Part shown: one piece after another, positions 6,252 through 29,250 of the stretch | Position numbering within the stretch: the first letter of the stretch is position 1 | How the letters are laid out: every line of letters begins with the position of its first letter | IMG/VR virus record: IMGVR_UViG_3300031576_000233 | Span: 1-30,542 of that record | Origin: a virus | DNA: 30,542 bases | Direction: 5' to 3' (one strand) | Made by a program: the position numbers and the translations under genes | The notes under the pieces: generated by a model | The model's input: only the letters and a program-made list of their open reading frames with translations | Databases searched by the model: none | What the model was told of the DNA's origin: nothing

Positions 6252-7808
6252 ATGTCGGAAATTTCTGCAGGATCGCGCGCCGCGACCGATGTCGCCGCGC
6301 TGCTGCGAGCTCGTAACCCTCTGCTGTGGATCGTGACGTGCGAAGAGGCGCGCGTCGAGCGCTTGCTTGTCGAGTCGGCGCAAGCCGCGCAATACGACCC
6401 GCGTTTTTGGGATTGCGCGACCGGCATTTCCAACTTTGCGGGCGAGCCGCGCGAGTCCGGCGCGAGCTGCACAGACCCGGCCGAAGTGTTGCGCGTGATT
6501 CGCGACAGCACGGCGCGGCAACTTTGGGTGCTGCGCGATATGCCGGCCTGGCTGCGTGACCCTTCGGTCCTGCGCTCGTTGCGTTCCCTGGCGCGATCGC
6601 TGCCCATGGCGTCGCGCGAAGAGGCGCGCGCGGTCATCCTTCTGACGCCTTCGGCGGAGATTCCTCCCGAGCTCGCCGGCCATGCGATTGTCCTGGAGTG
6701 GCCGCTGCCGGATCGCATGGAAATCGGCGCCATCCTTGACGCCGCAATTTCCGCGCTGCCCGAGGATCTGCGCGACCAGGCGGCGCAGAACGGTGCGCGC
6801 GACGCGGCGATTGATGCCGCTGTCGGGCTCACCGCCGAAGAGGCGCAATCGTGTTACGCGAAGTCGCTGGTCAGTACGCGGCGCATAGAACCTGCCGTCG
6901 TCGCCCAGGAAAAAAAGCGGGTGATCGCGCGGGAAAAAGTGCTCGAGTGGTTCGACCCCCTGCCGGGCGGGCTGGATGCGGTTGGCGGGCTGGATGCGCT
7001 CAAGGGTTGGCTGATGGGCCGGCGCGCCGCGTTTGGGCCGCGCGCTCGGGCCTACGGCCTGCCGGCGCCGAAAGGTTGCCTCCTGGTCGGCGTGCCGGGT
7101 TGCGGGAAGTCACTCACCGCGAAGGCGATCGCCACCGCCTGGGCTATGCCGCTGCTGCGTCTCGATATGGGCGCCCTCAAATCCAAGTGGGTAGGCGAGT
7201 CCGAGGGAAACATCCGCAAGGCGCTCAAGGTCGCGGAAGCGGTCGCCCCGTGTGTGCTATGGGTCGATGAGATTGAAAAGGCGCTCGCAGGCGCAACGCA
7301 AGGCGCGGCCGATGGCGGCGTATCCGGGGACGCGCTGGGCGCGGTGCTGTCCTGGATGCAGGATCGCGCGGGTTCCGTGTTCGTGGTCGCCACCGCAAAC
7401 GATGTTTCTGCGCTGCCCCCTGAACTGCTGCGCAAGGGCCGGTTTGACGAGTTGTTTTTCATCGACCTGCCGAACCGCGCCGAGCGCGTAGAGATTGCGC
7501 GGGCCTCGCTCAAATCCTACGGCCGCGCGGTCGACATCGACCTCGGCGCGGTCGCTGATGCCACTGCGGATTTTACCGGCGCAGAAATCGCGGCGCTGGT
7601 GCCCGATGCGCTCTTCGTCGCTTTTGCGGACGCGGAGCGCGCCATCGTGTCGGGCGACTTGGTGAAGGCGGCGGGCGCTACGGTGCCACTCGCGCGGACG
7701 GCAACGGAGAAAATTGCGACGCTGCGCACGTGGGCGAAAGGGCGCGCGCGGCCGGCTACAACGCCGGGCGCGAGCAATGTGCAGAGCGGCCGCAAGTTGG
7801 ATGTTTGA
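6252..7808 (+). CDS. Ycf46-like AAA+ ATPase
   Basis: A 518-residue protein matching Ycf46, a AAA+ family first known from plastids and cyanobacteria. The N-terminal ~230 residues have the Ycf46 pattern (LLRARNPLLWIVTCEEARVE, then FWDCATG, LWVLRDMPAWL and PPELAGHAIVLEWPLP). The linker VLEWFDPLPGGLDAVGGLDA leads to the ATPase core. Walker A GVPGCGKS lies at about 280-287, Walker B LWVDEIEKA at about 336-344, sensor 1 VVATAND near 380, and the arginine-finger segment LRKGRFDELFF near 393-403. GGGAG precedes the ATG. It probably remodels a protein or nucleoprotein complex. The downstream gene is a likely partner. Catalytic residues look intact. Confidence 0.88.
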   Translation: MSEISAGSRAATDVAALLRARNPLLWIVTCEEARVERLLVESAQAAQYDPRFWDCATGISNFAGEPRESGASCTDPAEVLRVIRDSTARQLWVLRDMPAWLRDPSVLRSLRSLARSLPMASREEARAVILLTPSAEIPPELAGHAIVLEWPLPDRMEIGAILDAAISALPEDLRDQAAQNGARDAAIDAAVGLTAEEAQSCYAKSLVSTRRIEPAVVAQEKKRVIAREKVLEWFDPLPGGLDAVGGLDALKGWLMGRRAAFGPRARAYGLPAPKGCLLVGVPGCGKSLTAKAIATAWAMPLLRLDMGALKSKWVGESEGNIRKALKVAEAVAPCVLWVDEIEKALAGATQGAADGGVSGDALGAVLSWMQDRAGSVFVVATANDVSALPPELLRKGRFDELFFIDLPNRAERVEIARASLKSYGRAVDIDLGAVADATADFTGAEIAALVPDALFVAFADAERAIVSGDLVKAAGATVPLARTATEKIATLRTWAKGRARPATTPGASNVQSGRKLDV

Positions 7809-25714: not shown

Positions 25715-26206
25715 ATGCTGAGTACGGAGCAGCGTCGTCAACGAGCGTGCCAAGCAACGGCGCGGTGGAAGGAGCGTAACCAGGAAAAGGTTAAGGCATG
25801 GCGCGAAGCGAACCCCGAGAAGGTAAAGGCAATGGGGCAACGCTATTACCTGAAGAACGCAGAAAAAAGGAAGGCCCGGGCAACGGCTTGGCGAAAAGCA
25901 AACCCACGACGGACAAAGGAGATGATGCTGAAGATTAAGTTCGGCATCAACCACGACGAGTACGACGCGCTACTTAGGCAGCAAGAGGGCCTATGCGCGG
26001 TCTGCCGTCAGCCTGAAAAGGCCGCGCATCATTCGCGCTGGGGAAGCAACGGCAAGCTGCGAGCCCTCGCCGTCGATCACGATCACGTCACCGGTAAGGT
26101 CCGCGGTTTGCTCTGTTCTTCTTGCAATGGTGCGCTCGGTCAATTGCGCGAGAGCGTTGAAATCATCGAACGTCTTAGGGCGTACTTGTTGAAGGTGCGC
26201 CAATGA
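25715..26206 (+). CDS. HNH / recombination endonuclease VII-type nuclease
   Basis: 163 residues. The C-terminal domain has zinc ligands Cys94 and Cys97 (LCAVC), the catalytic DHDH at 121-124 (LAVDHDHVTGKVRG) and Cys134/Cys137 (LCSSC), the endonuclease VII/His-Me finger layout. The N-terminal 70 residues carry basic WR(E/K)ANP repeats typical of mobile phage endonucleases. It sits alone in a virion gene run, seven bases after one gene and overlapping a 14-codon frame after it. It probably cuts branched or target DNA and behaves as a mobile free-standing endonuclease. Confidence 0.85.
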   Translation: MLSTEQRRQRACQATARWKERNQEKVKAWREANPEKVKAMGQRYYLKNAEKRKARATAWRKANPRRTKEMMLKIKFGINHDEYDALLRQQEGLCAVCRQPEKAAHHSRWGSNGKLRALAVDHDHVTGKVRGLLCSSCNGALGQLRESVEIIERLRAYLLKVRQ

Positions 26207-27552: not shown

Positions 27553-27705
27553 ATGAAACCGTTTCTCAGCAAGATGAAGCTCTGGTGCGCCAAGGCGCTC
27601 CAGGCTTTCCTGTCGGTTTTTTCCACGCAGAAGGTGCCTCACATCTTCTACATGGCCGTACCAGCAGCATCCGGCCATCCGCAGTACAGCGGCACCTTCA
27701 TCCCT
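27553..27705 (+). CDS. Major capsid protein, exon 1 (5' of group I intron)
   Basis: ATG at 27553 after GGGAG gives MKPFLSKMKLWCAKALQAFL, continuing to MAVPAASGHPQYSGTFIP at the splice junction (51 codons). An alternative start, ATG 27652, gives the short family-like N-terminus MAVPAASGHPQYSGTFIP but has no well-placed ribosome site. Unspliced translation stops at 27714 after two intron codons. Joined to 28384 the reading continues IPEIWSGKLVEKFY, the conserved N-terminal arm of this capsid family. The spliced protein is 339 residues (306 from the second ATG). Confidence 0.82.
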
Positions 27706-28383
27706 AGCCTTTAATTTTGGGGATGTAAAACCCTCTCTGAACATCATGGAAAACGTCATCAAAGACGCAACCAGAGGGAACCTGCCTCCCAAGTTCACCT
27801 GGGACTACGTTGCTGGTTTCTTCGACGGAGAAGGGTGCATCGACGTGCAGAAGATGTACCCGAAGGGCGCGCACCAGGGCCAGTTGTATGTCCGGCCGAG
27901 GCTGCGTCTTTGCCTTTCGATTGTCGGCCTCGATTTGCTCACGCAATTGCGCGATCAATTCGGCGGTCATCTTTGCCACCGCAAGGGACATGGGAACGCC
28001 AAACCTTCCGTGTCCTGGGAAATTCTGAACGAGGCGGATATGCGGCGCTTTCTGTCGCGATTCTCCGACAAGCTCGTTCTGAAGCGAGAGCAGGCCAGGC
28101 TCGCCCTGTGGTGGCTGGAGAACGTGAAGGGGCGCCAGAAGCACCTTCACGGCGACATCTGCGCGGCGCGGCACGCTTTCGTCGAAGAACTGCGCGCGAT
28201 GAAGCAGGACCCGCAGAGACTGAGCGAGAGGGCGACGCAGTGTATCGCTGCGTTGATGCGACAGTCCGACCTCCATAGCGATGTGGAGACCATGGCGGAA
28301 ACGACCATGGCGCGCGCGGCATGAGAAAACTTCTTCTCATCCTCGCGTTCATTGCGCTTACTCCGGCGCAAAGCAACAGCAAG
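27706..28383 (+). ncRNA. Group I self-splicing intron in the major capsid gene
   Basis: Length 678 bases. P1: CATCCCT (27699-27705) with GGGGATG (27719-27725), with the splice-site U pairing with G. P10: exon-2 GAAAT (28384-28388) with ATTTT (27714-27718). P3: CCCTCTC (27731-27737) with GAGAGGG (28226-28232). P5: CGTC/GACG (27754-57, 27764-67). P6: GGG and CCTGC (27776-27785) with GCAGG and CCC (28204-28212). P7: GACTG (28218-28222) with CAGTC (28262-28266). P8: CGACGCAG (28233-28240) with CTGCGTTG (28248-28255). P9-type hairpins follow at 28271-28288, 28290-28310 and 28321-28340. The intron ends in the required G (28383). P4 is only weakly drawn. The endonuclease frame fills L6. Confidence 0.9.
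27746..28324 (+). CDS. Single-motif LAGLIDADG homing endonuclease, intron-encoded
   Basis: 192 residues. Residues 21-33, YVAGFFDGEGCID, are the LAGLIDADG helix with the catalytic acid. Then LRLCLSIVGLDLLTQLRDQF, VSWEILNEADMRRFL and ALWWLENVKGRQKHLH give the usual DNA-binding saddle. Only one motif is visible, so it likely works as a homodimer that cuts intron-free capsid genes at the exon junction, copying the intron. It overlaps core helices P5 to P9. No Shine-Dalgarno before the ATG. The P3 strand lies just upstream, so translation may be limited while the RNA is folded. Confidence 0.88.
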   Translation: MENVIKDATRGNLPPKFTWDYVAGFFDGEGCIDVQKMYPKGAHQGQLYVRPRLRLCLSIVGLDLLTQLRDQFGGHLCHRKGHGNAKPSVSWEILNEADMRRFLSRFSDKLVLKREQARLALWWLENVKGRQKHLHGDICAARHAFVEELRAMKQDPQRLSERATQCIAALMRQSDLHSDVETMAETTMARAA

Positions 28384-29250
28384 GAAATCTGGAGCGGAAA
28401 GCTCGTGGAGAAGTTCTACGACGCCACCGTGTTCGGCGATATCGCCAACACCGACTACGAGGGCGAGATCAGCAAGATGGGCGACAAGGTGAACATCCGT
28501 ACCACGCCGACCATCATCATCCGGGACTACCAGAAGGGCGGCAATCTGCAGTACCAGCGCCCGGAAAGCCCCAATGCAGAGCTGGTGATCGACAAGGCGA
28601 AGTATTTCGCCTTCATCGTCGACAACATCGACCGTTTCCAGTCGGACATCAACCTGATGGACGACTGGGCCGGCGACGGTGGCGAGCAGATGAAGATCGC
28701 CATCGACACGGACATCCTCGCCGTGATCCCTGCCGACGTTCCCGCGCAGAACAAGGGCGCGACCGCCGGCCGCAAGTCGGCGAGCTTCAACCTCGGCGCG
28801 ACCGGCGCCCCGTTCGTTCTCACCGCGGCGAACATCGTGGAATTCCTCACGGCGTGCTCGACGGTGGGCGACGAGCAGAACTGGCCGGAGACGGGCCGGT
28901 GGCTGGTGATGCCGCCATGGATGCGGTTCCTGCTGATGAACAGCGACCTGAAGAATGCCAGCCTCGCGGGTGACGAGACCTCGATCCTGCGCAACGGTCG
29001 CATCGGCGTGATCGACCGCTTCATGATGTACGTGTCGAACAACGTCTCGACCGCAGTGGACGGCGCTTTCACCGTCTACAACGTGATGTTCGGCCACAAG
29101 TCTGGCCTCACGTTCGCAGCGCAGATGACCGAAATGGACACGCTGAAAGCGGAGTCCACCTTCGGCAATCTCGTGCGCGGCCTGAACGTGTACGGCTACG
29201 AGTCCATCAAGCCGGAGGCGCTGGGGCTGGGCTACGTCCGCAAGGGCTGA
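28384..29250 (+). CDS. Major capsid protein, exon 2
   Basis: 288 codons of HK97-fold-type coat: EIWSGKLVEKFYDATVFGDI, then NTDYEGEISKMGDKVNIRTT, IRDYQKGGNLQYQRPESPNA, IDNIDRFQSDINLMDDWAGD and GRWLVMPPWMRFLLMNSDLK. This tract and its place after the scaffold identify the major capsid. The in-frame ATG at 28321 (MRKLLLILAFIALTPAQSNS) is inside the intron and would give a false signal peptide. The real upstream residues come from exon 1. Confidence 0.9.
   Translation, partial: EIWSGKLVEKFYDATVFGDIANTDYEGEISKMGDKVNIRTTPTIIIRDYQKGGNLQYQRPESPNAELVIDKAKYFAFIVDNIDRFQSDINLMDDWAGDGGEQMKIAIDTDILAVIPADVPAQNKGATAGRKSASFNLGATGAPFVLTAANIVEFLTACSTVGDEQNWPETGRWLVMPPWMRFLLMNSDLKNASLAGDETSILRNGRIGVIDRFMMYVSNNVSTAVDGAFTVYNVMFGHKSGLTFAAQMTEMDTLKAESTFGNLVRGLNVYGYESIKPEALGLGYVRKG

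Follow-up and report, generated by a model that had tools for sequence, protein, structure and literature searches.

The window analysed here is an entire viral metagenome record of 30,542 bases. Within it, a capsid gene is divided into two exons; the exons and all intron, ribozyme and LAGLIDADG endonuclease features of the window given below lie on the plus strand. Exon 1 (27553..27705) comprises 51 codons from a predicted ATG start codon at 27553 to ...SGTFIP and ends in TTC ATC CCT, and exon 2 (28384..29250), which begins GAA ATC TGG and encodes EIWSGKLVEKFYDATV..., matches the Pfam family PF25209 (Phage_capsid_4) with 38.3 bits. The 678 nt between them (27706..28383) end in G, and a TAA at 27712..27714 closes the reading frame of exon 1. 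Upon conceptual splicing the joined exons encode ...QYSGTFIP-EIWSGKLVEKFYDATV..., with a predicted spliced-RNA junction of ...TTCATCCCT joined to GAAATCTGG.... Upstream, in the structural gene block, the window also holds a free-standing endonuclease VII-type gene (25715-26206; PF02945, E=2e-21).

Capsid relatives were found in 228 viral stretches, the top match being 85% identical, and together with the PF25209 match they bear out the initial annotation of the interrupted gene as the major capsid gene. In the two nearest capsids, L003 (85%) and L004 (77%), there is no insertion: FIP runs directly into EIWSGKL, and both proteins have an N-terminal extension resembling that of the window capsid. 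The earlier proposal that joining SGTFIP to EIWSGKL removes an in-frame stop thus agrees with what the capsid alignment shows. Among the best 80 of the 228 relatives, the codon region is uninterrupted in 76 and interrupted in the same capsid region in four (L063, L070, L077 and L080). Among 50,697 isolated phages, no close relative was found.

Introns at the same capsid codon

Is the insertion at this codon found elsewhere? An endonuclease of 49% identity gave the first lead, to L002, where a related insertion occupies this codon too. Two DNA patterns of the conserved core, followed by a broader one, then recovered L084/L100, L085 (nearly identical to L088 and L089), L063/L086, L087/L099, L090, L101, L102 (nearly identical to L106), L103, L109 and L110, each with its intron at this codon, and an endonuclease profile search added L120-L122, L124 (with its near-copy L125), L126-L128, L129 (with its near-copy L130), L132 and L133. 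Including the window copy, we count 22 same-codon introns, and 7 of the 21 others lie in a second capsid family. The same-site introns are 302-770 nt long and fall into all three length classes modulo 3, all 22 end in G, and all contain in-frame stops, which in every relative occur at intron codons 2-7. Stops, lengths and the terminal G exclude in-frame translation of the insert, and with it the refuting case considered at the outset, a 226-codon insertion read through in the relatives. Intronless relatives and the 21 other introns support the originally assigned borders to the base.

The smallest same-site member, in L109 (10453-10754), is a 302-nt intron in which the endonuclease body is deleted, leaving a remnant MNPEYLAGLL followed by a stop, and the core is intact. 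An ORF-less core of this lineage was also observed in a different gene (MAAGAWTVKF...) on the minus strand of L107 (~6370-6574, borders approximate), where it adjoins a separate endonuclease-like gene. The exact core pattern had no matches in 84,980 prokaryote genomes and yielded no prophage or host link.

Ribozyme core and exon-intron pairing

All the elements that the initial annotation had named, namely P1 with its U.G pair, P10, P3, P5, P6, P7, P8 and the terminal G, are present and supported by comparative alignments. P1 (27699..27725) pairs exon CATCCCT (27699-27705) with the IGS GGGGATG (27719-27725) and places a U.G at the 5' splice site, while the P10 guide ATTTT (27714-27718) faces GAAAT of exon 2 (28384-28388). 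P3 is formed by CCCTCTC (27731..27737) and GAGAGGG (28226..28232), P4 by C27745 and TGG (27747-27749) with CCAG (27771-27774), P5 by CGTC (27754-27757) with GACG (27764-27767), P6 by GGG (27776-27778) with CCC (28210-28212), and P6a by CCTG (27781-27784) with CAGG (28205-28208). The 5' strand of P7 consists of G28216, a bulged A28217 and GACTG (28218-28222), which pair with CAGTCC (28262-28267), and P8 joins ACGCAG (28235-28240) to CTGCGT (28248-28253). P3 and P7 cross, forming the pseudoknot that is a hallmark of group I introns. In the 3' domain, predicted folds of 12 homologous domains include two P9 hairpins, CTCCAT (28271-28276) with GTGGAG (28283-28288) and CCATGG (28290-28295) with CCATGG (28305-28310); the counterparts in relatives form matching stems from different sequences. 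As expected for a method that ignores pseudoknots, the minimum-energy fold of the whole intron lacks the pseudoknotted core.

We scored these pairings in two alignments. In 21 sequences, P1, P10, P3, P6/P6a and P7 are paired in 99.4% of cells and 17 of 31 pairs show double-sided changes; in 12 relatives, P1, P10, P3, P4, P5, P6a, P7 and P8 are paired in 96.6% of cells, with double-sided changes in 18 of 43 pairs. Neither count was reached by any of 500 shuffles, figures that are not to be read as probabilities because the relatives are not independent, yet slid structures, which preserve this relatedness, collapse to 36-52% paired in the larger set and 40-46% in the smaller. P4 and P5 were scored in the 12-row alignment only, since MAFFT placed P4 one base off in the 21-row alignment, and so was P8, which had been trimmed from long-loop members before alignment. 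In the 12 relatives, P4 (97.9% of cells paired) and P5 (87.3%) both show compensatory changes, and P8 is paired in 91.4% of cells with all six pairs changed on both sides. In the 21 sequences, P3 is paired throughout (100%) with four of seven pairs changed on both sides, P6a pairs occur as up to four pair types, and P7 is likewise 100% paired with double-sided changes: its outer pair, on the far side of the bulge, is G-C in 12 sequences, C-G in 7 and A-U in 2, and its innermost pair is A-U in 11 and G-C in 10. The pair G28218-C28266, expected to form the guanosine site, is invariant.

The pairings between exon and intron co-vary as well. The U.G at the 5' splice site is present in 21 of 21 sequences, and the flanking P1 pairs are compensated in L109, L122, L126, L127 and L133. 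Where the window has CATCCCT/GGGGATG, L109 has TATCCCT/GGGGATA, L122 and L126 have GTCCCT/GGGGAC (encoding F-V-P), L127 has ATTCCT/GGGAAT, and L133 has CACGCCT/GGGCGTG (L-T-P). P10 is paired in 98.8% of cells in the 21 sequences. Compensation with exon 2, U-A being replaced by C-G, is seen in three relatives, GAAG facing the guide CTTT in L122 and L126 and GAG facing CTT in L090. This co-variation is strong sequence evidence that the exon borders assigned here are those used.

The covariance-model search that had been proposed as a check did not recover the intron. Rfam gave no meaningful match in the window at the gathering threshold or at E<=10 (for RF00028, none in 27600-28500), and RF00028 had no match at E<=5 in L109 or L107, the natural endonuclease-less cores. 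RF00028 does find other large capsid-gene group I introns; that it misses L109 thus points to a divergent lineage rather than to the absence of an intron. The window intron shares with RF00028 (Intron_gpI) the P3-P8 topology, the bulged P7, the guanosine-site pair and the U.G in P1. We attribute the miss to model coverage, and a match to RF00028 does not define the group I structural class. A recent paper on a group I database puts the number of group I introns in Rfam at only 2,611 (PMC11835236). Because the standard Rfam model does not see this lineage, capsid genes in viral surveys may be split and their N-arms mis-annotated.

The endonuclease and alternative readings of the locus

The initial annotation described the intron as compact, which holds for the ribozyme and not for the intron as a whole, most of which is filled by an overlooked ORF. 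This ORF (27746..28324) encodes a 192-aa LAGLIDADG homing endonuclease with a single motif, YVAGFFDGEG, and a TGA stop, and matches PF00961 (E=1.9e-06, 29.1 bits, cut-off 23.1). A profile built from seven endonuclease relatives matches I-CreI-derived, I-MsoI and I-CvuI chains in the PDB (best E=2e-13), enzymes that reside in algal organelle rRNA introns and share the single-motif LAGLIDADG fold, over only ~110 residues. From the single motif and this likeness a homodimer is expected, as for those enzymes. The best endonuclease matches in the 50,697 isolated phages are below 41% identity; that in Cyanophage PP is a free-standing gene between the terminase on one side and the portal on the other.

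The body of the endonuclease sits within the P6a loop, and its 3' end overlaps the ribozyme core. A strongly conserved RLSE stretch is encoded by the very bases that form J6/7, P7 and P3, and in the cores examined arginine is AGA or CGA and serine AGY. Owing to this double use, translation through the stretch should compete with ribozyme folding. In most relatives the endonuclease starts in the P6a loop, in several with a GGAGG-like site ahead of it; the start is intact in L088 and L110. The window copy has no ATG in the P6a loop, and its sole in-frame ATG (27746) lacks a clear ribosome-binding site, so that expression of the window endonuclease is doubtful and the protein may be poorly made. 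Two further arrangements were observed. In L063, L129, L132 and L133 the endonuclease frame extends into a P8-loop insert with paired Cys-X2-Cys motifs, which are zinc-finger-like. In L119 (3001-3600) a related LAGLIDADG gene stands free immediately 5' of a capsid gene that is uninterrupted and has deviating target codons (TTCCTGCCAGAG), possibly a free-standing or intron-lost state.

We conclude that 27706-28383 is almost certainly a group I intron that is mobile, encodes a LAGLIDADG homing endonuclease and interrupts the major capsid gene, a reading derived from comparison of sequences. Could it be a group I intron by descent that is dead or splices poorly in the window copy? Its endonuclease start region is unlike those of the relatives, perhaps through decay, and its 3' domain contains an extra hairpin. 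However, the window retains intact P1, P10, P3, P6, P7 and P8 helices as well as the guanosine-site pair, and a protein that is both essential and abundant relies on splicing, which makes a defective copy very unlikely.

A second alternative is that a free-standing homing endonuclease gene split the capsid gene, with the capsid protein made, without splicing, from an internal ATG at 28321 (MRKLLLILAF...). This ATG is in frame and overlaps the endonuclease stop (ATGA), and L119 offers an example of a related free-standing endonuclease directly 5' of a capsid gene; the capsid gene of L119, however, is itself uninterrupted. Moreover, in the frame of exon 2, relatives have a stop right at its 5' border (TAG directly followed by GAG in L090 and by GAA in L103), the ribozyme pairs co-vary, exon-intron pairs included, and an internal start would forfeit the conserved N-arm. 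We therefore regard this split as extremely improbable. The ATG opens a signal-peptide-like stretch, MRKLLLILAFIALTPAQS (28321-28383), that continues into exon 2 and is probably a chance product of a P9-region hairpin. LAGLIDADG domains are found also in inteins and in some group II introns, but the chance that the element is an intein, a group II intron or a translational bypassing element is negligible, since every relative has in-frame stops, with lengths in all three classes modulo 3 (against an intein), the P3/P7 pseudoknot and terminal G are those of group I, and Rfam found no group II match in the window.

Predicted mobility and comparison with known systems

In the mobile group I intron proposed here, going by established group I biochemistry, an external guanosine bound at P7 would attack after the splice-site U of P1, and the freed end of exon 1 would then attack after the terminal G, with exon 2 held in P10. 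The exons would be ligated as ...SGTFIP-EIWSGKL..., yielding the full-length capsid protein. The endonuclease, made from unspliced RNA and dimerizing like I-CreI, would cut a capsid gene that lacks the intron at the near-symmetrical TTCA-TCCC-TGAA (putative cleavage target, the TTCATCCC^TGAA region), and repair would copy the intron in.

The insertion point, between P and E of P-E-[IV]-W-S, is common to both capsid families. The capsids of L120-L128 are ~46-51% identical to that of L108 and, where aligned, only ~21-31% identical to the window capsid. That the target encodes the conserved F-I-P-E-[IV]-W would explain how the lineage keeps one codon in two capsid families. The second-family endonucleases form one supported clade (99/99), and the same-codon intron occurs sporadically among the capsid relatives. 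Given this single clade, the data fit one or a few transfers, or old inheritance; frequent exchange is not shown. We speculate, very tentatively, that the lineage could be specialised on capsid genes and cross distant phages by way of the F-I-P-E-[IV]-W target, and that cutting might favour carriers in mixed infection, making the intron partly a weapon; on balance we consider this unlikely. In PhiPA3, a different phage with a different gene, an intron-encoded phage endonuclease is reported to interfere with a co-infecting virus (PMC11620839).

The capsid-gene location, at first thought worth documenting because phage group I introns are known mostly from DNA-metabolism and terminase genes, has precedents. 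Mycobacteriophage LittleE (Cluster J) has a capsid-gene intron whose splicing was demonstrated by RT-PCR and N-terminal sequencing; it is probably of group I and, like the window copy, lies in the major capsid gene and has a U before the 5' splice site, a terminal G and a LAGLIDADG-like ORF, but it belongs to another phage group, measures 819 bp and carries the endonuclease ORF on the opposite strand (PMC3706429). A lactococcal phage capsid intron is mentioned as a citation in the same paper. Group I-type introns, several per gene, are reported in the MCP genes of Delta and Zeta crAss-like phages; these are different phages, and fidelity to one codon across capsid families is not described in the available portion of that paper (PMC7886860). 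The lineage is undescribed in the open-access literature searched, a scope outside which most subscription papers lie. What appears to be new is thus an intron lineage that Rfam does not see and that keeps to a single capsid codon, with splicing and homing predicted. The 22 same-site introns, the exon-guide co-variation, the endonuclease-less derivative and the free-standing endonuclease offer a series for testing movement between phages and the tolerance of introns in an essential, highly expressed gene.

Other insertions occur close by. In L123 and L131 the intron is apparently displaced by about four codons (borders approximate). Near the same capsid codons, L070 (1900-2780) probably has a further group I intron, whose ORF carries two LAGLIDADG motifs and which has no Rfam match. 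Other group I introns are inserted between YEG and E in L063, L077 and L080; Rfam, whose gathering score is 50, gives them 37.0, 43.6 and 54.2 bits. That in L063 (2075-3006) follows TEYEG, contains an HNH-type ORF and is the second in its capsid gene, the two introns being 27 codons apart.
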